Below, in pieces: positions 2,642-35,588 of a DNA stretch of 64,000 bases (positions are counted from its first letter, which is position 1; every line of letters starts with the position of its first letter). The notes beneath the pieces were generated by a model, which was given only the letters and a program-made list of their open reading frames with translations, did no database searches and was not told the DNA's origin. Origin of the DNA: Candidatus Hydrogenedentota bacterium (GTDB lineage: Bacteria; Hydrogenedentota; Hydrogenedentia; Hydrogenedentales; CAITNO01); assembly GCA_012730105.1 (NCBI GenBank), contig JAAYBJ010000003.1, positions 77,450 through 141,449 on the forward strand, read 5' to 3'. A program made the position numbers and the translations under genes.

Positions 2642-5308
2642 CTAGAAAATAATCACCAGGGTGGCCCGGTGAGTGACCGAAGAGGCGTTGCCAGCGCTGT
2701 CCGTTGCGGTCAGGGTGACATCATAATGGGTCGTGCCCTCGCCGAAATAGGTTTTTATTGTGAGGTTCGCGCCTGTGCCAAGTGTTTCCGGAGGGCCCTC
2801 GTTTATGGACCGCGTCCAGACCAATGCGTCTCCGGTCAGATCGCCGTCTTCGGGATCGTGAGCGCTGCCTTGACACACCATGTTAAAGTAGTGCCCGGTG
2901 TCGTATTCGAAGGGTCCCGTGACGTCGCCCACCGCTGGACTGATGATGGTGACCACGTCCGGCGGCAGATCCGGGGGATTTTCATTCACCGTAATGTTGA
3001 CCGTCTTGCTGACCGAGTTGGTCCCATCGGTACCCGTGACGCGTATGACATGGGCGCCCAAGCTAAGGGTACCCGCAGGGATGGTGCGCGTATGGCCGGT
3101 ACCGACAAGGACATTATCCACGTACCACGACATCTGCGCGTCTGTAAGACGGCCGCCGGGCTCGTTGGGGTCCATGCTGGTCGCGGCCAGAAACACCTGC
3201 TGTCCCTGGAAATAGGAGGCGCCGTTAGCCGGTGAAGTAATACCGATGACCGGCGGCCGGTTGACGACCCTGAGGATGATGGTATCCTGAACCGTCGAGC
3301 TGTCCGGAAAAGTCGCACGGGCCCGTATGGTATGGTTCCCGTAGCTCAGGGTGGTGGCGGTGATTGACGGCCCCGTTCCCAGGACGCCGTTCAGCGTACT
3401 GGTCCATTCGATGGTTGGGGTACCGCGCCCGTCGTCGTGAACAAAGGAGGTGAAGGTCACCGGCAGGCCCCCGTACACCTCGCTGCCGCTTTCCGGGGTT
3501 TCGATGATGATGATGGCGCCCAGCGCCTTGGAAACAGCTGCGTAGGCGTCCACGTACCGTCTTACCCGGTTATCCGGACTGCTGTGCGCCGTGGTTATGA
3601 GAATGTTGCGCACGGCGTTCGCGGAAAGGGACGGCTTGGCGGCCATGACCAGCGCGGCGACGCCCGCAGTATAGGGCGCGGAGAAACTGGTGCCGTTTTT
3701 CTGCTGCGCATCCGTCCCGGAAGAGGACGGATCAGGCCCCACAATGACGCTGTATGGGGCGAAGATGTCCACATGCTCGCCGCCGTAATTGGAACCGCTG
3801 TCGCGGCTGGTCGCGTTTTTCCTGAGGCCACCCACGCACATCACGCCCGCGTTTTCACAGGGCGTCCACCAGGTTTCCTCCCAGCAGACGATAAAGCAAT
3901 CCTCCGCATCCACGTTTTTGTTGCTGTTGCCCGCGGAGGCGGTGATTACCATGGAATGGGCTGCCGCCGCGGTAGCAATCTCGAAAGGCAACACGCTGAA
4001 CGCCAGTATCGTGGGCACGCCCGTGCCGTAACTCATGTTGACAACCCGCGCGCCTAAAATGCGCGCCTCGACCAGCGCGCTGATGCTGGTAAAGAAATCA
4101 TACAGGGTGAAAACCATGATGGGGTCGGCCACAGGACCCGCCGGGCCCGCGGCGCCGAAGTTGTTATCCGGAACGCCCATGGCCGCACCCACGACATTAG
4201 TCCCGTGCCAGGGGCACGAGGAGCCGCCGCTGCACCCCAGCAGGTTGGCGGTACCGATGGGGTCTTTAAACGGGACGTTGGAGATAGCCGTCCAGCCGGC
4301 GGGCACGTCCTGATTGCCTGCCACAGAGAAGCCCATGTCCAGGACGGCCACCTTGACCTTGTTGGACAGTTTGCCCGCTTTGGCCAGGAGGTACCAAGCC
4401 TCGGTCACGCCGATATTCTGGACGCCGCGCACATCCAGGTGATTCCAGGCGAAGGCGTTGGAAGTATACCCGGCCCCGTTCGAATTGAAGCCATCGGGAC
4501 CGTTCGCCGCCTCGGTGGTGTACCGGCTTTCCAGAGAATCACCGCGGGCTACCCAATTCATGCCGACCGTCATTCCAGCCACGGCTTCTTCGGCGCTCGC
4601 CGAAATCAGGCGCAGCCCGGCTTCGCTAGACACGCGGTTGGCACCCCGGGCGTCCGGATCGAGGGCAAGAATGTCCGCCTCAAGCTGCGCGGGATCGCCC
4701 AGCGACGTATTGATCTTAACGAGATGCATTTCAGGCATGTCCAGATCAGTGTCGCCGGGATCAACGGTCCACAGGAGTTCGCCGGCCCATCGTCCGATAA
4801 ACGCCGCCAGGGCGGCGGCATCATCCGTCACCAGAATCAACTCGTCCTCGACAAATTCCGCCTGGTTGCCGCGCTCGTCGACAATGGCCGCCAGTTTGCG
4901 CTCAGGCCCGCCGGAATCCAAGGGCGGGAGGGATTCATGGGCCGGCACGATGTCCGTATCCACCACCAGGCTCAACGGTGACAGGGCTGCCGGCGCCGCT
5001 TCGACGGTGACCGACGCCAAAGCCTCGATGCCGCTCGAATCGCCGCGGACCACAACGGTTGTCTGACCCTCATCCACACCGCTTACCACGCCGGACGAAT
5101 CCACAGATGCTATGGTGGGCGCTTTTGAGGTCCAGGTGAAAGAGGTGTCCTTGTCGGAGGTGGAGACCGCTTCCAGCGCTATGGCCTCCCCCACTTCGAT
5201 GGTAACCAGCGACGGCATGACGGTCACAGTCGGCTTGCAGCCGGCCGCGCCAAGCAGCGCCCCGAAACAAAGCACAACCATCACCGAATACCGAAACGTA
5301 GTGTTCAT
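2642..5308 (-). CDS. Lipoprotein subtilisin-like serine protease with Ig-like modules
   Basis: Exported S8 peptidase of 888 residues. The N-terminus is a lipoprotein signal with lipobox LGAAGC (Cys24), so the protein should be membrane-anchored. Next comes a bacterial Ig-like (BIG2) module (~28-105), a segment like a protease prodomain (~140-230), and the S8 catalytic domain with Asp in VAVLDMGFSV (~322), His in CPWHGTN (~367) and Ser in GTSFSAPYTAGVAAL (~541). The last ~290 residues are three PKD/Ig-like beta modules. The region of the catalytic domain is Cys-rich (CFIVCWEETWWTPC), perhaps disulphide-bonded. AAAGGAG precedes the ATG. Substrate unknown; stand-alone gene. Confidence 0.9.
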   Translation of the reverse strand: MNTTFRYSVMVVLCFGALLGAAGCKPTVTVMPSLVTIEVGEAIALEAVSTSDKDTSFTWTSKAPTIASVDSSGVVSGVDEGQTTVVVRGDSSGIEALASVTVEAAPAALSPLSLVVDTDIVPAHESLPPLDSGGPERKLAAIVDERGNQAEFVEDELILVTDDAAALAAFIGRWAGELLWTVDPGDTDLDMPEMHLVKINTSLGDPAQLEADILALDPDARGANRVSSEAGLRLISASAEEAVAGMTVGMNWVARGDSLESRYTTEAANGPDGFNSNGAGYTSNAFAWNHLDVRGVQNIGVTEAWYLLAKAGKLSNKVKVAVLDMGFSVAGNQDVPAGWTAISNVPFKDPIGTANLLGCSGGSSCPWHGTNVVGAAMGVPDNNFGAAGPAGPVADPIMVFTLYDFFTSISALVEARILGARVVNMSYGTGVPTILAFSVLPFEIATAAAAHSMVITASAGNSNKNVDAEDCFIVCWEETWWTPCENAGVMCVGGLRKNATSRDSGSNYGGEHVDIFAPYSVIVGPDPSSSGTDAQQKNGTSFSAPYTAGVAALVMAAKPSLSANAVRNILITTAHSSPDNRVRRYVDAYAAVSKALGAIIIIETPESGSEVYGGLPVTFTSFVHDDGRGTPTIEWTSTLNGVLGTGPSITATTLSYGNHTIRARATFPDSSTVQDTIILRVVNRPPVIGITSPANGASYFQGQQVFLAATSMDPNEPGGRLTDAQMSWYVDNVLVGTGHTRTIPAGTLSLGAHVIRVTGTDGTNSVSKTVNITVNENPPDLPPDVVTIISPAVGDVTGPFEYDTGHYFNMVCQGSAHDPEDGDLTGDALVWTRSINEGPPETLGTGANLTIKTYFGEGTTHYDVTLTATDSAGNASSVTHRATLVIIF

Positions 5309-5763
5309 CGTGAACTCCTTTCATTGTTCTTCCTCAGAAAAACATTCTTTCATCCGCCTATTCATCTCCAGGATACAAAGGCTATAGGCAGACAAGGGAC
5401 CGCAATCACAGGCTGGCGAATGTTCCCACAGTCCATATTCAACTTATACAAACAAGGAACACCCATTGATACAAAAAAATTCATCGTTCGAGCGCATGAA
5501 AAATAGGTTGAATAAATATCACCGCGAGCGCATGAAAAGACATAAGGTGATGCAATCTCTCGAGATCTAGTGCATCTCGCCGTTCTAAAATAATGCGCTC
5601 AACCTGTTGTTCTGGGGGGGCAATTCAGGTCAGGCACATGGGCGGTTTTGTTTTATTAATGCACGTTTATTGTCAGAATCAAAGAAAACGTGTCCGCCCG
5701 AAACGTGGCGTAGTTATACGGGGAGCGCCTGACAAGAAAACTTGGTGGAATTGACAGGCGTCA
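5309..5763. other. Intergenic region, no gene seen
   Basis: 455 bp between two reverse-strand genes. The only structure noticed is a 14-nt direct repeat CGAGCGCATGAAAA at 5489-5502 and 5525-5538 (36-nt period), of unknown meaning. It contains the promoter side of the subtilase gene, but no strong -35/-10 pair was found. Confidence 0.5.
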
Positions 5764-6411
5764 TTACTTGACTTTATAGGTTATGGACATGCCGTCGGCT
5801 TTTTCATCAGAAGCGCGGACAATGACGGTTTCATAGTCCGGATTGCTTCGGACATAGTCCAGGTAGTCCTTCATGGCTTCGGCCGATTGGATCACGTTGT
5901 CCGCGACAACCACTGCACCGGTCTTGAGTTTGGGTTCCAGTAGTTTAAAATATTTGAAATAGTCTTTCTTGACGGCGTCCAGAAAAACAAAATCAAATTC
6001 GCCTTCCAATTCCCCCAGTATCTTCAGCGCATCGCCCTCGATGCAGGTGACGGTCTTTTCAAGGCCCGCCTTCGCGATATTCTCCCGGCAGGCCTTCACC
6101 AGTTCCGGGTCAATCTCTAAAGTATACAGATGGCCGTCTGTCCTTTCGAAGGCGATACCCATGTTGATAGCGCCGTAGCCGGATTCTGAACCCACCTCCA
6201 CGCCCCGCTGCGCGTTCCGGCTTTCCGCGAGAATACGCAGCAGCATCGCATCGCCGGGGGTCGTACTCAAGCCAGTTCGATGGAAGCCGTCAATAAGCGC
6301 TTGGCGTTCTTCAGCGCCGACCAACCGTTCTTCATCCGCGAAGGACACAGCACTATAGAGCAGGCATGCCGTTCCCGCTACTATCACCCAGGCTAGACCG
6401 TTTCTTTTCAT
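5764..6411 (-). CDS. SAM-dependent O-methyltransferase with predicted signal peptide
   Basis: 215 residues. After an apparent Sec signal (MKRNGLAWVIVAGTACLLYS, Ala-rich exit before DEERL) the protein matches the catechol-type class I O-methyltransferase fold: VEVGSESGYGAINMG (SAM motif I), LYTLEID (acidic residue binding the ribose), EGDALKIL, DFVFLDAVKKDYFKYF (metal-binding Asp region) and VVVADNVI. The mature length fits the family. The export signal is odd, because SAM is a cytoplasmic cofactor. The alternative is that the hydrophobic segment is only a membrane anchor. The stop lies 12 nt past the next gene's region, so this gene probably follows the VTT-domain gene in one transcript. Confidence 0.85.
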   Translation of the reverse strand: MKRNGLAWVIVAGTACLLYSAVSFADEERLVGAEERQALIDGFHRTGLSTTPGDAMLLRILAESRNAQRGVEVGSESGYGAINMGIAFERTDGHLYTLEIDPELVKACRENIAKAGLEKTVTCIEGDALKILGELEGEFDFVFLDAVKKDYFKYFKLLEPKLKTGAVVVADNVIQSAEAMKDYLDYVRSNPDYETVIVRASDEKADGMSITYKVK

Positions 6412-6422
6412 CTTCCTTTTCC

Positions 6423-7106
6423 TTATTGTGTCGCTTCATTAATAAGCCGTCGCGCCCTCCACGCGAGAATGGCCACGACGAGCAGGCTGAACATCAATCC
6501 TCCCCAATAGAATACGGGGTGTATCGAAATGGTTTCTCCGCCGCCCGCCGAATTAAAGATGGTGCGGGTTCCGGAACCGATGTACGCGACAAAGATCGTC
6601 CTGGGAATCATGCCTATCAATGTGCCCAGGACATAGGCTTTCAGGGTGACCGGTGTCAAGCCGAGAGAATAATTAAGCATAATGACGGGAAACATCGGGC
6701 AGAGCCGCAGCAGGACCACCAGGCGGAAACCCTCCCGCCCTATCGCCCCGGCAATGGCTTCGAAGCGAGGATCAGACCTCATCTTTCGTTCCGCCCAGCC
6801 GCCGGCGACTCCGCGTGTCAACAAAAAGGTGGCGGTACTGCCCAATACCCGCCCCAAGGACACAGCAACAGTCCCAATACCCACCCCCCAGACGGCTCCC
6901 GCAGCAGCGTTTGGAAGCAGATCCGGAAACATGAGCACGCAGGAAGGGAGGTAAAGAAGGATGAAAACAAAAGGCCCCCACGGCCCCAGTTCCCCCACCC
7001 GGGCCAACAACTTCAAGAGCCATGATTCGAGGGGAAGGAGAAACGACACGCCATACCATGTCGCAATAACGGCCAGGAATATCAGCACCCTGAGCCAGAT
7101 TCTCAT
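6423..7106 (-). CDS. TVP38/TMEM64 (VTT-domain) inner-membrane protein
   Basis: 227 residues, about five to six hydrophobic segments. The central region carries family signatures: GAVWGVGIGTVAVSLGRVLGS, a helical stretch with REGFRLVVLLRLCPMFPV, then NYSLGLTPVTLKAYVLGT and GMIPRTIFVAYIGSG. This is the VTT/SNARE-associated (DedA-like) fold, whose members are linked to lipid scrambling or undecaprenyl-phosphate recycling; the role of this copy is not known. It ends 11 nt before the O-methyltransferase start on the same strand, suggesting an operon. Confidence 0.9.
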   Translation of the reverse strand: MRIWLRVLIFLAVIATWYGVSFLLPLESWLLKLLARVGELGPWGPFVFILLYLPSCVLMFPDLLPNAAAGAVWGVGIGTVAVSLGRVLGSTATFLLTRGVAGGWAERKMRSDPRFEAIAGAIGREGFRLVVLLRLCPMFPVIMLNYSLGLTPVTLKAYVLGTLIGMIPRTIFVAYIGSGTRTIFNSAGGGETISIHPVFYWGGLMFSLLVVAILAWRARRLINEATQ

Positions 7107-25753: not shown

Positions 25754-26046
25754 AGATATATCTCCATTCAATTACCGGGGATGCGGAGTTATTTAAAGAA
25801 GACCTTGCGGATACGCAGAGCCATTACTAGTTAGTATCGCCCTTTTTACCGCCCCAATGCAAACCAGCACATTCCGACACATTTCAGAAAACAATCAATC
25901 CGAGGCTTTCCCCCGGAAAATTATGCATCCTCCCCTGACAAGCGGTACAATATTCTCCCTGTCATAAAAATGGCAGGTAAAATGCGTTAAGAAGGGTGTA
26001 TTGTATAACGTAGGATGAAATTTTTTTATTGCAGTGGAGAGCGCCC

Positions 26047-26433
26047 ATGAAGTCTAACAGCGGTTTCACATTGATAGAACTGATCCTGGTAACCGTGATT
26101 ATCGGCATTCTGGCCGGCATGATTACCGCGAATTACAGCGGACGTGTCCGGGAGACGCAAATCCGTGCGGCCAAAGGGGATATTGCCACCTTGAGCACAC
26201 AGGTTGACCTGTATGCCCTTGACAACAATGACAGTTATCCCAAAGCATTGGATGATCTTATGACTGGAAAACGGCGTTACATACGCGAGTTACGCCCGGA
26301 CCCCTGGGGCAACCAGTACCTGTACAAGCCTCCCACGGATGTCCTGCTGGCCGATTATCAGATTTACTCGGCGGGACCGGACGGCATTCCGGACAATGAA
26401 GACGATGTGACCTCTTCATCCCCCATGCCTTAA
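26047..26433 (+). CDS. gspG: Type II secretion major pseudopilin
   Basis: 128 residues, first gene of the T2SS operon. The prepilin peptidase site is KSNSG|FTLIELILVT with Glu5 of the mature protein, followed by the hydrophobic helix. Downstream are DLYALDNNDSYPKALDDL, RPDPWGNQYLYKPP and a C-terminal SAGPDGIPDNEDDV, the conserved calcium-binding end of GspG. It builds the periplasmic pseudopilus. ATG at 26047 is preceded by GTGGAGAG; an earlier TTG is less likely. The next gene starts 46 nt downstream. Confidence 0.95.
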   Translation: MKSNSGFTLIELILVTVIIGILAGMITANYSGRVRETQIRAAKGDIATLSTQVDLYALDNNDSYPKALDDLMTGKRRYIRELRPDPWGNQYLYKPPTDVLLADYQIYSAGPDGIPDNEDDVTSSSPMP

Positions 26434-26479
26434 TGCGGATTTTGTCGGACTCCTGTCCCGAACGCCGGAAGGCTCTATC

Positions 26480-27007
26480 GTGAAAGATGTTCCGCGCCAC
26501 AGTTCAGGCGGCCGCTCCGCTTTTACACTCCTGGAGCTGCTGGTCGTCATCATCATCATCGCCGCCCTCTCCATGTCCATTGTGCCCGTCTATATTTTCT
26601 CCATGAATGGCATCGAAATGCGCAACGCCCGCAATGATCTGCTCGCCGCCATCCGGTACGCCCAGGAAATGGCGGTCCGGGAATCGCGGGAATACCGTAT
26701 TATCTTTGATCTGGACGAAAACCGGTACTACCTGGAGCGTCTGGCCGGCCTGGACAAGGAAGAAAAGGTGTTTGAGCCCGCGGAATCCCTTCTGGGCGAA
26801 GAGCAGCGCCTTCCGGAATTCTTGACCCTCACCAAGATGAAAGGAAGGCAAAACAAGCAGACCCGTAACTACTATATCCGCTGCCTACCCAACGGTACGA
26901 GCGACAAAGCGACCATTGAACTGCGTGACACGCGCGCGCGCAACATTCGTTACATACTCGAGATATCCGGTCCGCTGGGGCAGGTATCCATGGAGGAGCG
27001 CCGTTAA
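26480..27007 (+). CDS. gspH: Type II secretion minor pseudopilin GspH-like
   Basis: 175 residues. Starts with GTG at 26480 (GGAAGG 7 nt upstream). The prepilin N-terminus GGRSA|FTLLELLVVIIIIAALS has Ala rather than Gly before the cut, a tolerated variant. The globular part (ARNDLLAAIRYAQEMAVRESREYRIIF) is the GspH/FimT pattern. Its stop overlaps the next gene's start (TAATG), showing coupling. Confidence 0.88.
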   Translation: MKDVPRHSSGGRSAFTLLELLVVIIIIAALSMSIVPVYIFSMNGIEMRNARNDLLAAIRYAQEMAVRESREYRIIFDLDENRYYLERLAGLDKEEKVFEPAESLLGEEQRLPEFLTLTKMKGRQNKQTRNYYIRCLPNGTSDKATIELRDTRARNIRYILEISGPLGQVSMEERR

Positions 27008-27465
27008 TGCGGACAGGACGGTCGGGTTATATTTTCGTGGAGACCGTGGTCGCCATGGCTGTGCTTAGCGCAAGTGCAATCGTCATCCAGAGCGCGCTTC
27101 GCCAGGGAATGCTTACCCACCGCCAGGCCCAGGACTATACCATCGCCCGTTTCCTGGTTCAGCAGGTGGCCGGAGAACAGGCCCTTTTATTCCAGCAACC
27201 AGAAGGCTCCGGCTCGGGACAGTTCGACCCGCCCTATGAGGACTATCGTTACGAGTGGGAACTGGAGAAAGTGGACATTCCCCTCCCCGAAGGCGTCGAG
27301 TCCCTGCCCCCCCCGTTGCGCCAGGAATTCGAGGATCGCTTTGTCGATTATATGGGCAAGCTGACCGTGCGCATCACCTGGCAGCGGGGAGGCATGGAGA
27401 TGGAAGCCCTGGGTGAAACCCTGCTGCGCCCCGACTTGCTCTGGCTGCCCAAGGAGGAGCGATGA
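27007..27465 (+). CDS. gspI: Type II secretion minor pseudopilin GspI-like
   Basis: 152 residues. Prepilin-like N-terminus GRSGYIFVETVVAMAVLS with Gly before the predicted cut and Glu5 in the mature helix; the rest is weakly conserved, with an acidic Pro-rich loop. Assignment as GspI comes from position between GspH and GspJ and from the short size. Coupled at both ends: TAATG with gspH and ATGA with gspJ. Confidence 0.8.
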   Translation: MRTGRSGYIFVETVVAMAVLSASAIVIQSALRQGMLTHRQAQDYTIARFLVQQVAGEQALLFQQPEGSGSGQFDPPYEDYRYEWELEKVDIPLPEGVESLPPPLRQEFEDRFVDYMGKLTVRITWQRGGMEMEALGETLLRPDLLWLPKEER

Positions 27466-28232
27466 AGGTATACCTGCGGCACAGGCACCATCATGCGGCA
27501 CCCCCCGCTTTCCGCGCTGGATTCACCCTGATCGAGCTACTCGTGGCAACCACCCTGCTTAGTATTGTCATGTCCGCCGTCTATACGCTGACCCACGCTT
27601 CCCTGCGCAGTTGGAGTTACGCGGAAAGCGGATTTGACCCCTACCGGGAAGCGCGCAGCGCGTTTACCCTGTTTTCCCACGAATACAACAATATGGCGGG
27701 ACGTGCCGGCCACCTTTTTGAAGGAGACGACCGCCAGATCACCATGTTTGTGATTGCCCAGCCCATGGATCTTGACGAGGGCGAAGGTCGTCGGCTGATG
27801 CGCGTCATCTACAGGTACAACCGCAACAAGCGCACCCTGGAACGGGAAGAAGCCCTGGTGGAGACCGCCTTGCCCAAGCAACCGCCGGACCCGAAAGAAT
27901 TCGACCGTTCCCGGGTCAAGGTGGCGCGGGAATACAAAACCACCGTGGCGGAAAACGTCACCGACTTAAAAATCACTTATATCTGGGTGCCCGCCCCCGA
28001 TGACATCAGCGATCCGAATGATGAGGAGCCTCCCGTTCCGGTGCCCGCCGTTTACATGGAGAGACACGACCCGCTTTGGGGGCTTCCGCAAGGCGTCCAG
28101 CTTGCCATTACGCTCAGAGATCCTGATGATGACGAAAAAGAATATACCCTGGAGGCCACGTTTCCCTCGCGCGCCAACGCATTCCGCATGCCCCGAGAAT
28201 CCCTGGAGAAAATGATCTTTGACGAAGAATAA
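27462..28232 (+). CDS. gspJ: Type II secretion minor pseudopilin GspJ-like
   Basis: 256 residues. Leader of ~20 residues rich in His (HRHHHAA), then RAG|FTLIELLVATTLLSIVMSAVY. The middle matches GspJ in length and in the RSAFTLFSHEYNN helix that follows. With GspI and GspK it forms the pseudopilus tip. The start overlaps gspI (ATGA). Confidence 0.86.
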   Translation: MKVYLRHRHHHAAPPAFRAGFTLIELLVATTLLSIVMSAVYTLTHASLRSWSYAESGFDPYREARSAFTLFSHEYNNMAGRAGHLFEGDDRQITMFVIAQPMDLDEGEGRRLMRVIYRYNRNKRTLEREEALVETALPKQPPDPKEFDRSRVKVAREYKTTVAENVTDLKITYIWVPAPDDISDPNDEEPPVPVPAVYMERHDPLWGLPQGVQLAITLRDPDDDEKEYTLEATFPSRANAFRMPRESLEKMIFDEE

Positions 28233-29160
28233 CCGGAAAAAAGGATTTGTGCTGATCAGTGTCCTCTGGATCACCGCCATGCTGACAGTGATCACGCTCG
28301 GCTTTGGCCGACGGGCCGCCCTGGACCGCCGCGCGGCCGCCTATGCCCTTGACCAGGAAGAAGCGATGATGATGGCGCGGGGGGCGGTGGACCGCGGTAT
28401 TGTGGAAATGTACAATCGCGGACTTATGTTTATGCTGCTGCCGCCGGAACTTCAAGGCGGCACCCACATGGCCGAGTCCTGGGCACATCCCAAAAACCTA
28501 TTTGAAGAAGGGTATTTTGAAGAAAGTGAACAATACGAAAATGACGAAGTCATTTATGTTATCACGGACGAAGAGCGTTACATAAACATCAACACCTCCC
28601 CGCGGGAAATCCTGGAAGAAATAGAGTCCATGAGCCGTACGATCGTGCGCCGCATAATGACTCAAAGAGAAACAAATGACAAAGAAGGCTTAATGCGTTT
28701 CCAAGCCATCGAAGAAATTCGCTACCTGCGCGGTGTGGACGATGATGACTGGTTTGGTGAACGGGACAAAGCCGGGCTGAAAAATCTGCTGACCGTGTGG
28801 GGCGACGGGAAGATCAATATCAACACCGCCTCCGAAGACGTGCTGTCGTGCATTCCCAAGGTTAAAAAGCGTGATATCGCGGCCATCCTCGAATACCGCA
28901 ACGGCCCGGACGGCGTTTCCTATACCTCGGACGATCTCGGCTTCATGAATATGGAGGATCTGGCGGAGAAAACAGGTGTAACCGTTGACCCCACAGGACC
29001 GTTAAATACATATTGCACTTGTACCTCGATATTTTTTAGGATTACAGGGGTAGCCACCCGGCGACAGGGCCGGATTCGCGCCGTATGTTCGGCCGTGGTC
29101 AGTCTGAGTGAGAGTGCGGCACCCATTCTCGATTGGCAGGAGAAAACGCTTGGCTCGTAA
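28219..29160 (+). CDS. gspK: Type II secretion minor pseudopilin GspK-like
   Basis: 313 residues, the largest pseudopilin. TTG start inside the end of gspJ with GGAGAA ~8 nt upstream. N-terminus KKGFVLISVLWITAMLTVITLGF is the prepilin helix; Glu5 is absent, as is usual for GspK tip proteins. Two helix-hairpin-helix-like GspK repeats are seen: NTSPREILEEIESMSRTIV and INTASEDVLSCIPKVKKRDI, then TSDDLGFMNMEDLAEKTGV. It caps the pseudopilus. Confidence 0.9.
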   Translation: MTKNNRKKGFVLISVLWITAMLTVITLGFGRRAALDRRAAAYALDQEEAMMMARGAVDRGIVEMYNRGLMFMLLPPELQGGTHMAESWAHPKNLFEEGYFEESEQYENDEVIYVITDEERYININTSPREILEEIESMSRTIVRRIMTQRETNDKEGLMRFQAIEEIRYLRGVDDDDWFGERDKAGLKNLLTVWGDGKININTASEDVLSCIPKVKKRDIAAILEYRNGPDGVSYTSDDLGFMNMEDLAEKTGVTVDPTGPLNTYCTCTSIFFRITGVATRRQGRIRAVCSAVVSLSESAAPILDWQEKTLGS

Positions 29161-30646
29161 ATCAGGTTACATAAGCATTTATCAATTGGATTCGAAGGCC
29201 ATTTCCGTATTGCGCTGCAAACTTGCGGGGAGCAAACCGGTTGAAACCGCCTGGTTGCGCCGCGCAGGGGAATGGAACGATACGGAGGCCCTTTCCGGGG
29301 CGTTGCGCGACTTCGTTTCGGAACACGGACTCAAGGAAGACCAGTGCTACGTGATCCTTCCGCGCTATGACGTGACCATCCGTTTCATCACGCTGCCCTC
29401 GCATGATATGGCCGAAATCGCGGGCATGGTGCGTTTCAGTGCGGAAGAGTATGTGCCCTACGCCTTGGACGAGCTTATCATAGACCAGTGCGTTCTAAAT
29501 CCCCTTGAAAGCGGGGAATCCCATGTGCTTGCCGCGCTCGCCCATCATGAGGTTGTCGAACGCACTATCGCGCTGCTCGCGAACGCAGGACTTTCCCCCG
29601 AAAAGGTGTTTCTCAGCACCGCGTGCATGACCGGGGTCGCAGGCGTATGCCCGAGTGAGGGACGCTTCGCACTGGTGAATCTCAGCCCCGGCGGGATTGA
29701 AATTACGGTGTTTGATCAGAAAATCCCGGTTTTCAGCCGCGGCATCGTTTCCGTTCAGGACTGGGAGGCGCTGGCCGAAAACCCGAACATCTCGGGCGGA
29801 ACCAGCGTTCTGGATACGGACAGCACGGAAGAACTCGCCTCCGAACTTCGAGGCTCGCTGTCGGCCTTCCGCCGGGAATCGCCGGACGGCCTGGGTGCGG
29901 ACGATATTTACATTTCCTGCGCCTACGCCAATGTCGAGAAACTATGCGCATCCCTCTCGGAACGAACGGGCAAGAACTGCCTGCCCGCCTCCTTCGCCCT
30001 GACGCTACTGGACGGGTCTGAGACATCGGCTCTGCCCGGGATACCGCTGGAATTTGTCGGCGCCCTGCGTGAAATCGCCGGGGCCGTTCCCGCCTCATTG
30101 AACCTGCTCCCCGTGAGCGAAACCAAGGCCCGGCGTGTCAAGGGCGCCCAGCGCCTTGCGGTGCGCACCGCCGTCTTCGCCCTGTTGATCCTTCTGGCAC
30201 TTGCGGGCCTTTATTTTCAATCGCTGTATCAACGCCGCCAACTGATCCGGGAACTGGAGGAACGCATCAGCACAATTGAACCGAATGCCCGCGGCATTGC
30301 CGAGAAACGGGAGGCGCTTAACATTCTTCGCCGGCAGGTGGACCGGAAAGGCTCCATTATCGAGCAAATCGCCCGTATCGTGGAGGCGACCCCGGACGAC
30401 CGGGTCAACTTCAACCGGCTCAGCCTGCACCGCAGTGAAGGGATCACGCTTTGGGGCCGCGCCAAGTCCGTCACCGATGTGGCCCAATTCACCCAGAACA
30501 TACGCAGTTCCGCCGAAAGTTACCTGGAGTTTTTCGCGCGCGCGCGCAGTTTGTACGAACAGCAGACCCTGGAACAGGATACCCAGGTGTTTGCCTACCA
30601 AATCGAAGTTTCCGCACTGGAGGAGGAAGAAGAAAATGGCCTCTAG
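29150..30646 (+). CDS. gspL: Type II secretion inner-membrane protein GspL-like
   Basis: 498 residues. The cytoplasmic N-terminal part (~1-320) is an actin-like PilM/GspL domain (GYISIYQLDSKAISVLRCK, CYVILPRYDVTIRFITLPS, VNLSPGGIEITVFDQ). One membrane helix follows (AVRTAVFALLILLALAGLYF, ~345-365), then a periplasmic PilN/ferredoxin-like domain with coiled coil. It would recruit GspE to the platform, although no gspE lies here. The TTG at 29150 (GGAG ~7 nt upstream) is preferred to an ATG 14 codons earlier that lies deep inside gspK. Confidence 0.85.
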   Translation: MARKSGYISIYQLDSKAISVLRCKLAGSKPVETAWLRRAGEWNDTEALSGALRDFVSEHGLKEDQCYVILPRYDVTIRFITLPSHDMAEIAGMVRFSAEEYVPYALDELIIDQCVLNPLESGESHVLAALAHHEVVERTIALLANAGLSPEKVFLSTACMTGVAGVCPSEGRFALVNLSPGGIEITVFDQKIPVFSRGIVSVQDWEALAENPNISGGTSVLDTDSTEELASELRGSLSAFRRESPDGLGADDIYISCAYANVEKLCASLSERTGKNCLPASFALTLLDGSETSALPGIPLEFVGALREIAGAVPASLNLLPVSETKARRVKGAQRLAVRTAVFALLILLALAGLYFQSLYQRRQLIRELEERISTIEPNARGIAEKREALNILRRQVDRKGSIIEQIARIVEATPDDRVNFNRLSLHRSEGITLWGRAKSVTDVAQFTQNIRSSAESYLEFFARARSLYEQQTLEQDTQVFAYQIEVSALEEEEENGL

Positions 30647-31718
30647 TCTCATCCGGAAACTTTTGGCGGCCTGGGAAAAAATCTCGCCCCGTGAAAAACG
30701 CCTTGCCAAGCTTACCTTTGCGGTCATTGTCATTATGTCGGCGTTCACCCTGTATCAGCGCGCCATGACACGCCTGGATGACCTTGACCTGACTATCGCG
30801 CGTCTTGAAGACGATCTGGTGTCCTACACCTACCAGATCGCCCACCGGGAACTGGTGGAATCACAATACGCAGAAATTGCGTCGCAGCATTCCAGTGAAT
30901 GGAGCGAGGCCGAAATTCATGACCGCCTTCGCCAGGAGATCTACCGCCTGGCCAGCCGAACCCCGGCGCCGCTGGATGAAAACGGCATCCCCGTTCCAAG
31001 CCCGAACGATCAAGGCAATCTTGTGGAAGGCATCTCCCTCGGCAAAGGCAACATGGCGGAAGGTGGCCGCGGCTACCGTGAATACCGCATTAACGTGCGG
31101 ATTCCCGCCTCTCCACTGGAAAACCTTATCCTGTACCTTGAGAACCTTCAGGACAGTCCCCAATCCCTGCGTATTGATGCGGCGGAGCTCAGCCGTTCGC
31201 CTGACAGCAACCTGGTAAGCGCCAGTGTGGACATCACCCGAATTGTCGCCGATGGATCTACAGAAAAACCGGCCGGAGAGTCGGCGGAATCCGCGGCAAC
31301 AGGATTGGGTCGCATCCGTCTGCAAGCCGACAACTGGAAGGTGCAGGGAGCCCGGGCGACAAACGCGGCGGCGGAGAGCGCCTATGGCGCCATAGAGCTG
31401 CAAGCGGAAGAGGACACGGCTGAAGTTTCGCTCGCGACCGAATTGCCGGGCAGTACGGTGTATGAAATGATTGTTGATATGGCGGCCGCCCAAGGCGAAG
31501 TCAGCCTGGGCATAGGCATGGAATCGGAAACGGAACCTTTCCCGGGAACGGAGCAGGTTAAAAACGACGGCCGCCTGTATCGGTACCAGATACAATTCAC
31601 GCTGCCCGGCACAGCGGACAAGCCGGAACGCATCAAATGTCCTCTTATCCGGATGCAGGGAAAAGGCACCGCGGCACACCTGGCCAACCTGCTGATTCGA
31701 AAAGTGGCGGAGGTTTGA
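30636..31718 (+). CDS. gspM: GspM/PilO-like protein with extra C-terminal beta domain
   Basis: 360 residues, about twice the usual GspM length. Residues 1-40 give a cytoplasmic stub and membrane helix (LTFAVIVIMSAFTLY), then a coiled coil and a ferredoxin-like domain (YREYRINVRIPASPLENLILYLENL) as in GspM/PilO. The last ~150 residues (from GRIRLQADNWKVQGARATN) look like a jelly-roll carbohydrate-binding-type sandwich. Start overlaps gspL by 11 nt (ATG at 30636). Assignment rests on order and topology. Confidence 0.75.
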   Translation: MASSLIRKLLAAWEKISPREKRLAKLTFAVIVIMSAFTLYQRAMTRLDDLDLTIARLEDDLVSYTYQIAHRELVESQYAEIASQHSSEWSEAEIHDRLRQEIYRLASRTPAPLDENGIPVPSPNDQGNLVEGISLGKGNMAEGGRGYREYRINVRIPASPLENLILYLENLQDSPQSLRIDAAELSRSPDSNLVSASVDITRIVADGSTEKPAGESAESAATGLGRIRLQADNWKVQGARATNAAAESAYGAIELQAEEDTAEVSLATELPGSTVYEMIVDMAAAQGEVSLGIGMESETEPFPGTEQVKNDGRLYRYQIQFTLPGTADKPERIKCPLIRMQGKGTAAHLANLLIRKVAEV

Positions 31719-32213
31719 ATGGACCGTATCATTAACATATGCGCTTCCGGCATCCTGGTCTGCATCCTTGCGGCCATTGCCTTGAACCAGATAAACGACC
31801 CCTATGATTCCCGGCGCAAAGCCCTGGAACAACGCATCGCCGAATCGGGGCCCATCGAAGAAAGTGAAGACTCCTTTGAATGGCAGTTTGATGAGTGGAA
31901 CAATTCCATTTTAGGGAAAACATCGGTGTGGCAGGAACTGATTCCGCCGCCGCCACCACCACCGCCGCCGCCGCCGCCGCCACCCAAACGTCCGGACGTC
32001 GCAGGGATGCTGGCCGATGTGAAAGCTACGCGCCAAAAGGTGGGCGACAAGATTAAATTTATTGTACCATCCAACCCGCGCGGCGAGTTTAAAAGCGTGG
32101 GCGAAAGCATTAACGGCGTTGAGATCAAGTCCGTAACACGCACGGAAGTCGTTTTTAACTACTATTGGGCGGAGAACAAAGAAAATATCAGCTATACCAT
32201 GCCAAGGGAGTAA
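31719..32213 (+). CDS. GspC-like protein with polyproline linker
   Basis: 164 residues. A membrane helix (ASGILVCILAAIALNQI, ~9-25) is followed by an acidic stretch, a run of 14 prolines (~77-90), then a beta domain (GDKIKFIVPSNPRGEF, ESINGVEIKSVTRTEVVF) like the homology region of GspC that contacts the secretin. The ATG abuts the gspM TGA. Named GspC-like from topology and location before the secretin; sequence similarity is faint. Confidence 0.6.
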   Translation: MDRIINICASGILVCILAAIALNQINDPYDSRRKALEQRIAESGPIEESEDSFEWQFDEWNNSILGKTSVWQELIPPPPPPPPPPPPPPKRPDVAGMLADVKATRQKVGDKIKFIVPSNPRGEFKSVGESINGVEIKSVTRTEVVFNYYWAENKENISYTMPRE

Positions 32214-32357
32214 TACCCGCCCATATCATGCGTCACTAGCGTCTTTTGTTGTATACTAGCATCCGTTGCGGCATATGGGCCGCCCTTCTTGGGAATCGGG
32301 GCGGGAATAACCCATCGTAAACATGTTTATTTTCAAGCCCTTAGTGAAAGGCGAAAC

Positions 32358-35243
32358 ATGAGTCTGTTTTTGAAGCGGCCGGTAAACGCCGTACTTATTA
32401 CCATTATCGCATCGGTTGCGGCGTTGTCCGCCGTGGCCCAGGGCCAAACCCCCACCTCTCCGCAGCAAAGCCCCGCCTCTAGTGGCCGCCGCACGCGTCC
32501 CGCCCCTTCTTCCGGGATTCCGTGGGATAGTGAAGACAGCGCTGGTTCAAGCCGAATAGACCGTTCCCGCTCCTCGGACGAAAATCGTGAACAATCGGAC
32601 ACTTCCCAACGCATAGACCGGAGTTCGAGCTCCCGGTCCGACAGCGGGGCAAAGCCCAAAGAAAGCAGCCCGGCGGAAAAAGCGGCGGCGGATACCGGTC
32701 CCGGTAAAGAACCGCCCAAAGCACGGGACGGTGCTTCGGGGCCAAGAACCATCGGCGGCGGCCGTACAACCGGCGCACCCGGCGCCCCCACCGCGGCGGG
32801 AATACCGGGCGCCACAGGCACCCCGCCGCTTGGCAGGCCGGGCGCGGCCACCGGGTTAGGCGTTGCGGGCGCGGCAGGCGCGGGCGCGGCCGGCGCAGGA
32901 TACAGCCAGGGCGGCCTGACCTCCGTTTCCATGACCGGCGAAGGCGCGTTTGAACCCGTACTGCAACGGGAACCTGAATATAAGGAGGTGCCTGAAGCGG
33001 GCGAGAAAATCACCCTCGAAGGCCCCATGCCCCTGGAAGAATTCCTCGCCGCCATCAACTTGGCCACCAATTGGAACGTCATGGTATCTCCCGAACTACA
33101 GGAAGTCGAACTGCGCTTCTGGATTTACGATGTCACCCCGAAACAGGCTCTTGAAGTCCTGAAATTCAACAAGGTCTATTATGAATTTGACGAGGAAACC
33201 AAGTTTCTGCGCGTAATGAACAAAGAAGAGTACCTCATGGAAGAATATGGCAAGGCCAAACCCCATGAGTTTAAAATCGTAAATGCCGATGTAACGTACA
33301 TGGAATCGCTGATCAATTCTTTGCTTTCTTCGTCCGGCCGTGTCATCACAGACCAGCGCACCAACAATATTTATGTATGGGACACGGAAGACAACATCAA
33401 AGAAATGACCCGCCTGGTCGAGGAAATGGATGTTCCTCTTCAGAAGGAAGAATTCATGATCAGGCATGCTGAGGTGGCTGATATTGAAGCCATGCTGGCC
33501 ACATTCATGTCCGCCAGCGGCAGCGTGCTCTCGGATGTCCGTACCGGGCAGATATTCGTATGGGATTCCCCCGCCATTTTGGACAAGATGCGTGAGGCTG
33601 TCGGACGTCTTGATCAGCCTGTGGAATCTCGCACCTTCTATATCACCCATGTCAGTGCTGAAGACGTTGTCGGCAGCATTGAAGCCATGTTGACCGAACG
33701 CGGCACGATTCAGGTCGATCCGCGATACAACACCGTGGTGGTTACGGACTTGCCCACGCGCATCGAAAACATAGCCAAAGTCGTGGAGACCCTCGACCAG
33801 CCGCTGGACACGCGCACCTGGGTGCTGAAATATGCCGACGTGGATTTCGTTGCCGATCAGATCGAAGCGTACATCCCCGGTGAGATGGGCCAGATCGTGG
33901 TGCAGGAAGAGGTACACCAGGTCACGGTGACCGGGTTACCGGCACGCCTGGATGAAATCGACGAACTCATCGCGGAATGGGATATCAAGCGCCGTCAGGT
34001 CTTGATCGAAGCCCACATCGTCGAGGTGAGCACCGATGTCGAACGGGCCTTCAATGTCAACTGGTCCGCTTTCTCCAACGTGGGCGGTTCTCCCTTTGCC
34101 ATCCATGGCGGATCGGGCGCCGGGACCCCGGCCGAAGCCTCCGGCAGCGGCCAGGTGGCCAGCGCCGGCGGCCTGCCCTACGCCGTGCCGCGCTACGGGG
34201 CGTTGCAGCTGGATGAAACCGGCGCTATTACGCGTCCCCTGCTGAAGGACATCGACGGGCAGACCATCATTGACCGTTATGTGGGCAGGAATATCGCCGT
34301 CACGCTGGACTATTTGGACCGTCAGGAAAAGGCGACCGTGTTGTCCTCGCCGCGTGTGACCGTGCAGGACGGCGAAGAAGCCATTTTCGAAAACGCCACC
34401 AAGGTGCCTTATGTGTCCTCGACCGGCGGTTACGGCGGCTATTATGGCGGCTATTACGGCAACAATAATGACACCAACGCTTATAATCGTTACTCGGCCG
34501 GCACGAGCCGCGTCGAGTTCATCGACGTGGGCACCATTCTTTCCGTGCTGCCCCGGGTTACCGAGGACGACAACATCCTGCTGGACATCAGCGCGGAAGA
34601 CAGCACCTATACGGACAAGAATGTTATCGTGGATGACCTTACCCGTTCTGTGCCCGAGAAAACCGTGCGGCAGGCGGACACCCAGGTGCGCGTAAACTCC
34701 GGGGACACCATTGTGCTCGGTGGACTGCGCCGCGACCGCGCCGGTCATTCCACCTCAAGAACGCCCATCCTGGGCGACATCCCGCTGATCGGCAAATTGT
34801 TCAACAATCCAAAGCGCACTTCCAAGAACGCCGCGCTGTTGATTTTCATCACCACCACCATCGTGGATGAGAACACCATGCCCGAAGCCGCGCAGGTCGC
34901 CCAGGCGGACCAGGAGATAGCCGATGCCCATCGCCGCATGAAAAAAGGACCTCTCGGCCGTCTGAAAAACACCATTAACGACAACAAAGATGAAATCGGG
35001 GTTTCCATCGGACAGAGCGGAAGCCTGCATTGTGCCGGTGAAATTGTAACCGTGGATGATTTGAGGGAACGCTTCTTTGATGCTGAAGACAAGAAGCGGG
35101 TTACCGTGGTCATCCGCAAACATCCAAGTGCCCCCATAGACACGGTCAACGCGGTCACCGAAGCCGCCATGGAAGCCGGATTGCGCATCGAATTTGACTC
35201 CGATATTCCACCCATCGTACCGGCCTTGGAATTGACCCCGTAA
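32358..35243 (+). CDS. gspD: T2SS secretin with four N1 repeats and ExbD-like C-terminus
   Basis: 961-residue outer-membrane channel. Signal sequence (NAVLITIIASVAALSAVAQ), then ~180 residues of Ser/Gly/Ala/Pro-rich disorder. N0 at ~215-290; four N1-type repeats at ~302-540, each ending like WDTEDNIKEMTRLVEEMD; secretin domain ~545-855 with a Gly/Tyr-rich loop (GGYGGYYGGYYGNNND) and the hallmark TPILGDIPLIGKLF. Instead of an S-domain, the end (~878-961) reads like the ExbD/TolR periplasmic domain: SIGQSGSLHCAGEIVTVDDL, VTVVIRKHPSAPIDTVNAV, TEAAMEAGL. ATG at 32358 has GAAAGG upstream; a longer frame begins at 32289. It starts 144 nt after the GspC-like gene. Confidence 0.93.
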   Translation: MSLFLKRPVNAVLITIIASVAALSAVAQGQTPTSPQQSPASSGRRTRPAPSSGIPWDSEDSAGSSRIDRSRSSDENREQSDTSQRIDRSSSSRSDSGAKPKESSPAEKAAADTGPGKEPPKARDGASGPRTIGGGRTTGAPGAPTAAGIPGATGTPPLGRPGAATGLGVAGAAGAGAAGAGYSQGGLTSVSMTGEGAFEPVLQREPEYKEVPEAGEKITLEGPMPLEEFLAAINLATNWNVMVSPELQEVELRFWIYDVTPKQALEVLKFNKVYYEFDEETKFLRVMNKEEYLMEEYGKAKPHEFKIVNADVTYMESLINSLLSSSGRVITDQRTNNIYVWDTEDNIKEMTRLVEEMDVPLQKEEFMIRHAEVADIEAMLATFMSASGSVLSDVRTGQIFVWDSPAILDKMREAVGRLDQPVESRTFYITHVSAEDVVGSIEAMLTERGTIQVDPRYNTVVVTDLPTRIENIAKVVETLDQPLDTRTWVLKYADVDFVADQIEAYIPGEMGQIVVQEEVHQVTVTGLPARLDEIDELIAEWDIKRRQVLIEAHIVEVSTDVERAFNVNWSAFSNVGGSPFAIHGGSGAGTPAEASGSGQVASAGGLPYAVPRYGALQLDETGAITRPLLKDIDGQTIIDRYVGRNIAVTLDYLDRQEKATVLSSPRVTVQDGEEAIFENATKVPYVSSTGGYGGYYGGYYGNNNDTNAYNRYSAGTSRVEFIDVGTILSVLPRVTEDDNILLDISAEDSTYTDKNVIVDDLTRSVPEKTVRQADTQVRVNSGDTIVLGGLRRDRAGHSTSRTPILGDIPLIGKLFNNPKRTSKNAALLIFITTTIVDENTMPEAAQVAQADQEIADAHRRMKKGPLGRLKNTINDNKDEIGVSIGQSGSLHCAGEIVTVDDLRERFFDAEDKKRVTVVIRKHPSAPIDTVNAVTEAAMEAGLRIEFDSDIPPIVPALELTP

Positions 35244-35588
35244 GACTCAAATGAACCTGACGGAAATCCTGCAAAACGCGCGGGACAAGGCACCGGAAAA
35301 CGCGTGATCTTGAAAGTTCGCGGGAATATAGGAGTGCGTGTTTCTTTGCGCGCAATCTAAACCCAAAACGTTTCAGCGTTTCGGTTGGGGCAGGTTAATG
35401 GTACCAAGCGTCCGGATGAATGAACTGGAAATTCCGGTGTTAAAAATGTTATGTTAGGTGCAAGGTGATTATACGCCTTGTTTCCCCCTCACGACCGATC
35501 AGGTCTTGTTTTCAGTCCACACCCGAGAAAACGGGTGTTTTACCAAGTGGATTCGCCCCAAGGCATCCGCAAAAGGTGTTTACTAATC
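35244..35588. other. Intergenic leader with small hairpins
   Basis: 345 bp between gspD and the acyl-CoA synthetase gene. Towards its 3' end are three short stems: CAAGG/CCTTG (35461-35480), GACC/GGTC (~35493-35505) and ACACCCG/CGGGTGT followed by TTTT (35519-35541). No gene seen. Confidence 0.5.
35519..35541 (+). terminator. Terminator-like hairpin in leader of the acyl-CoA synthetase gene
   Basis: 7-bp stem ACACCCG / CGGGTGT with a 6-nt loop and four T residues. It lies 48 nt before the start codon, so it could end gspD transcription or act as an attenuator. Confidence 0.45.

Follow-up and report, generated by a model that had tools for sequence, protein, structure and literature searches.

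Can a GspD-type secretin end in a periplasmic domain of the ExbD/TolR family, and what might such a domain do there? The question is raised by a secretin gene in a 64,000-nucleotide stretch of a Candidatus Hydrogenedentota genome (hereafter the window), for which a sequence-only reading had proposed this fusion. The gene (32358..35243; all features of the window described here lie on the forward strand) starts with ATG and encodes 961 aa, as judged from its translation and from Pfam and NCBIfam matches; an alternative TTG start of the same frame is open at 32289. Pfam identified four Secretin_N repeats and a Secretin channel domain at residues 653-837 (34314..34868; PF00263, E 4.2e-40). The sequence contains the open frame, the conserved secretin end (TPILGDIPLIGKLF ... 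LLIFITTTIV) and the tail just as that reading had quoted them. The protein does continue past the secretin end, by ~124 residues (from the end of the Secretin domain at 837 to the protein end at 961) rather than the ~110 given previously.

Homology of the secretin tail to ExbD and TolR

The ExbD/TolR-like periplasmic domain occupies residues 877-947 (34986..35198) and was identified by Pfam ExbD, profile-profile comparison, Foldseek and reciprocal searching. The Pfam ExbD family (PF02472), against which the sequence-only reading had suggested checking the tail, matched residues 831-943 of the window protein with an E value of 3.5e-4 and 21.1 bits, which is under the curated cut-off of 25.4 bits. 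When whole genomes were scanned with the family, three relatives, from G005, G007 and G016, had tails above this cut-off, at 29.4, 28.4 and 26.8 bits. When a profile of 50 tails was aligned by hhalign with a profile of 20 true ExbDs of the same family, the probability was 96 and the E value 6.5e-9. The domain alone scored 56 against the true ExbDs, compared with 6.8-14.0 for 30 column shuffles, 11.1 for the reversed profile and 10.5-17.3 for the secretin's own N0-N3 domains. Moreover, searching 386 genomes with the tail profile retrieved ordinary ExbD-sized genes (~140-155 aa) from many unrelated bacteria, with a best E value of 4.3e-9. Because some matches at E ~1e-4 were false (an IF-2 and a sugar dehydratase), only the stronger matches count. 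A sequence search of the PDB returned ExbD chains at E 0.4-1 only, which is non-significant alone.

The AlphaFold2 model of the tail (tail numbering plus 829 gives the protein residue) contains two linker helices, followed by strands at 50-55, 61-63 and 66-68, a helix at 70-78, a strand at 87-92, a helix at 98-110 and a last strand at 114-118. The pLDDT was 84-93 across most of the ExbD-like domain, and mostly >89 for this domain in an AlphaFold2 model of the C-terminal half. A Foldseek search against 350,542 PDB chains yielded five matches at E <= 1e-3, exclusively to E. coli ExbD (two chains of 8P9R, 8PEK, 8VGC and 8VGD); four of the five showed a target TM of 0.79-0.81 and an rmsd of 1.9-2.2 Å over 71-73 columns, and TolR (5BY4) was found at rank 13. 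The predicted fold of the tail is thus that of ExbD.

Taken by itself, the Pfam score of the window protein, below the curated cut-off, would leave room for a chance resemblance, with the tail being no more than a usual S-domain or an extension of the barrel. The shuffle, reversal and N-domain controls, the reciprocal ExbD matches at 4e-9 and the Foldseek result rule out this explanation, whose probability we consider negligible. In fold, strand-helix order and sequence, the C-terminal domain of this secretin is almost certainly homologous to the ExbD/TolR periplasmic domain (PF02472; 8P9R, 8PEK, 8VGC and 5BY4), and the fusion proposed from sequence is borne out.

Conservation in the tail peaks at the RKHPSAP loop (35115..35135). 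Among the 50 tails, its R-x-H-P-x-A-P pattern is kept at R in 48, H in 45, P in 44, A in 45 and P in 49. In an HMM alignment to E. coli ExbD, the loop corresponds to R105-D111 and adjoins Tyr112. The arginine of this strand-helix loop is conserved in ExbD/TolR and in the tail, whereas ExbD has D107 where the tail has H. A P-hydrophobic-V-P motif (PIVP; 35211..35222) follows the last strand, with P in 48/50 and V in 45/50 tails. Other features separate the two: ExbD and TolR, the wall-contacting components of the proton-driven Ton and Tol motors, start with a membrane helix bearing a proton-binding Asp, whereas the tail is preceded by the secretin barrel. No membrane helix was found in the tail (maximum mean Kyte-Doolittle value over 19 residues, 1.12), indicating that it has no proton-carrying aspartate. 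Additionally, helices stand in place of the N-terminal swapped strand of ExbD/TolR.

These helices, predicted by AlphaFold2 at residues 842-862 and 865-874 (34881..34979), form a linker at the place of the S-domain. Just 1 of the 50 linkers of relatives contains the Hyd-X-Ala-Phe motif, which known pilotin-independent secretins likewise lack. This motif is the pilotin signature of the S-domain (PMC6532946). The earlier statement that the protein shows no S-domain was therefore too strong, as two predicted helices occupy the position, even though the pilotin motif is nearly absent among relatives.

A fusion fixed in a type II secretion operon of the Hydrogenedentota

The host genome (5.6 Mb) belongs to the phylum Hydrogenedentota, and its relatives make up one order of 68 genomes; a scan of a genome collection returned a single relative, a Candidatus Hydrogenedentes metagenome-assembled genome. 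The search for the same fusion elsewhere, as proposed in the sequence-only reading, found the secretin with its tail intact in 57 of the 68 genomes. Only a fragment of it was seen in one genome (G019), the gene runs off the contig end in two (G022 and G025), and no orthologue was detected in the other eight. No complete orthologue without the tail was found among the 68 genomes. An assembly error or frameshift joining an exbD gene to the secretin was rejected because the tail is in frame in 57 genomes. The mean identity of the tail columns (47%) is close to that of the whole C-terminal half (46%). The ExbD-like domain had become fixed in the orthologous type II secretion system (T2SS) operon by the time the sampled Hydrogenedentota families separated. 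For most other secretins of these genomes, the match to the query stops near the channel end (~residue 838-845), and the ExbD match in the host genome is confined to this one among its secretins, indicating that the tail is specific to this operon.

Outside the phylum, no secretin-ExbD fusion was seen in ~318 sampled genomes, with at most 10 candidates scored in each. Two long-frame candidates, an IF-2 (G136) and a sugar dehydratase-like protein (G201), were false positives. A third (G195) was rejected as a non-secretin with no Pfam match; its 827-aa frame (L136:8988-11468, G195:C8) shows a weak tail match that includes a similar loop, LIHPRAPYGVI. Separately, a 553-aa protein from a different phylum, which opens with a signal-peptide-like stretch, carries at its C-terminus a membrane-free ExbD domain above the cut-off (37.7 bits; L139:3570-5228, G251:C20). 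No description of such a secretin fusion was found in a search of the open-access full-text literature. We regard the protein as a T2SS-type secretin bearing a new accessory domain.

The secretin is the last gene of a T2SS-type operon at 26029-35243. The operon begins with four pseudopilin genes (GspG, H, I and J-like; 26029..28232) in conserved order, the fourth of which (27462-28232) carries an N_methyl match. These are followed by a GspK-like gene (28219..29160; T2SSK, E 1.2e-5), a GspL/PilM-PilN-like gene (29108..30646; PilM_2, E 7.5e-14; PilN, 7.7e-5), a GspM-like gene of uncertain start, assigned by its conserved operon position (30630..31718), and a gene for a GspC-like protein (31719..32213). 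The last has no Pfam match above the cut-off and consists of a membrane helix, a hydrophobic-W-x-x-L segment, a polyproline stretch of up to 14 consecutive prolines and a small folded domain, a layout that is TonB-like. The hydrophobic-W-x-x-L segment, which reads TSVWQELIP here and stands just before the polyproline, is well conserved among homologues. A comparison with 19 related loci showed the same gene order in each, up to the limits of the respective contig. GspE-type ATPases are encoded elsewhere in the host genome, the gene downstream of the secretin (at 35478) is unrelated, and the genes around the secretin encode T2SS components and an acyl-CoA synthetase-like protein. No ExbB/TolQ gene was found among these neighbours; two true ExbD genes lie elsewhere in the host genome, with ExbB in the same operon.

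The assignment to T2SS is based on the presence of Secretin plus N domains and on the encoding of the secretin together with pseudopilins, GspK, L, M and C. Its best NCBIfam matches are PilQ/GspD. Because it falls below the type_II_gspD equivalog cut-off (232.9 vs 351.35 bits) and likewise below the PilQ subfamily cut-off, we regard it as a divergent secretin of the T2SS/type IV pilus type. It shares with the S-domain-bearing GspDs (PulD, ExeD and EpsD) the Secretin domain, four Secretin_N repeats, a T2SS operon and a helical segment after the barrel. Unlike them, it has an ExbD-like domain after the helices and almost no trace of the pilotin motif among its relatives. Additionally, its signal peptide is separated from the first secretin N domain by ~200 Ser/Gly/Pro-rich low-complexity residues (window 32358-33000).

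Possible roles of the ExbD-like domain

We infer, with moderate confidence, that the most likely role of the tail would be that of an outer-membrane-side peptidoglycan anchor for the channel. The C-terminus of other GspDs is periplasmic and near the outer membrane (PMC6532946). If the same holds here, the C-terminus would lie beside the channel wall, so that ~15 ExbD-like domains per ring would surround the channel, hanging on their helical linkers a few nanometres below the outer membrane. There they may bind peptidoglycan, like the periplasmic domains of TolR and ExbD, and keep the channel fixed in the wall, the job performed elsewhere by AMIN (PilQ), SPOR (LspD) or GspA/GspB.

Several observations are consistent with such an anchor. 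TolR(60-133) binds sacculi and the full TolR periplasmic domain does not (PMC4646322); the N-terminal swapped strand, which helps mask the TolR site, is missing from the tail. ExbD binds peptidoglycan transiently, with its dimer-interface region involved (PMC10771500), and the most conserved tail loop aligns with the ExbD dimer-interface loop. The usual secretin anchors are unseen, since searches of the host genome found neither AMIN nor, above the cut-off, GspB (T2SSB). In a related genome, a 1080-aa protein joins a membrane-free ExbD-like domain to a GH3 hydrolase and four LysM domains (L140, reverse strand, 3661-6900; G049:C83), which places such a domain in a wall-associated setting and argues circumstantially for anchoring.

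Other points weigh against the anchor. The support for peptidoglycan binding by the tail is circumstantial, and the GH3-ExbD-LysM protein was seen in a single genome. The last strand is present in the tail and absent from the peptidoglycan-binding TolR construct, and the residues with which ExbD/TolR bind peptidoglycan are mapped too coarsely for sequence comparison. Moreover, the tails do not conserve the position of Tyr112, on which the ExbD dimer interface is centred (PMC10771500), suggesting that a tail dimer may differ from that of ExbD.

The same residue bears on two alternatives. The tail might capture a partner strand, as ExbD captures the TonB D-box in its best-understood function (PMC10907165). 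Such a capture would serve to dock or gate the channel, with the GspC-like neighbour or another TonB-like protein as candidate partner. This is possible because the ExbD edge strand is kept, a hydrophobic residue occupies the L132 position in most relatives, and the GspC-like neighbour offers a TonB-like layout with its conserved segment before the polyproline. However, that segment lies near the inner membrane, far from the expected place of the secretin C-terminus by the outer one, and the Tyr112 contact of the groove-forming ExbD dimer is not conserved; we hold this explanation only tentatively. A clasp for assembly or stability, in which the tails of neighbouring subunits pair round the ring or the tail replaces the pilotin in targeting, would suit the dimerisation of ExbD/TolR domains and the helical linker with its nearly absent pilotin motif. 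It is doubtful given the unconserved Tyr112 interface residue and the finding that assembled ExeD stays stable without an S-domain (PMC6532946).

A mechanical coupling of the secretin ring to a Ton/Tol-type motor, by pairing of the ExbD-like domains with true ExbD or by capture of a TonB-like strand, would let the proton-motive force act on an outer-membrane secretin. We consider it very unlikely, and a direct motor link finds no support. Of the two functions guessed in the sequence-only reading, wall anchoring would fit best, whereas the link to a proton-driven motor is unsupported, as the tail has neither a membrane helix nor an adjoining ExbB gene.

As a peptidoglycan anchor, the tail would share its role with AMIN of PilQ and SPOR of LspD, which are unrelated and N-terminal; the present domain sits at the C-terminus, towards the outer membrane. 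GspA/GspB (ExeAB and OutB) likewise anchor T2SS secretins in the wall, but as separate proteins at the N0 end, whereas here the anchor would be part of the secretin itself. Legionella LspD is the only T2SS secretin known to have its own wall-binding domain, an N-terminal SPOR; PilQ also carries its own at the N-terminus, and anchoring by GspB/OutB takes place at the N0 end of the secretin (PMC9239104). A phylum-wide C-terminal ExbD-fold domain near the outer membrane, as a would-be tie to the wall, would be a solution unlike the N-terminal SPOR of LspD. It also means that ExbD domains can exist without a motor, and such a motor-free domain offers a clean way of finding out its own binding target, which is debated for TolR and ExbD.
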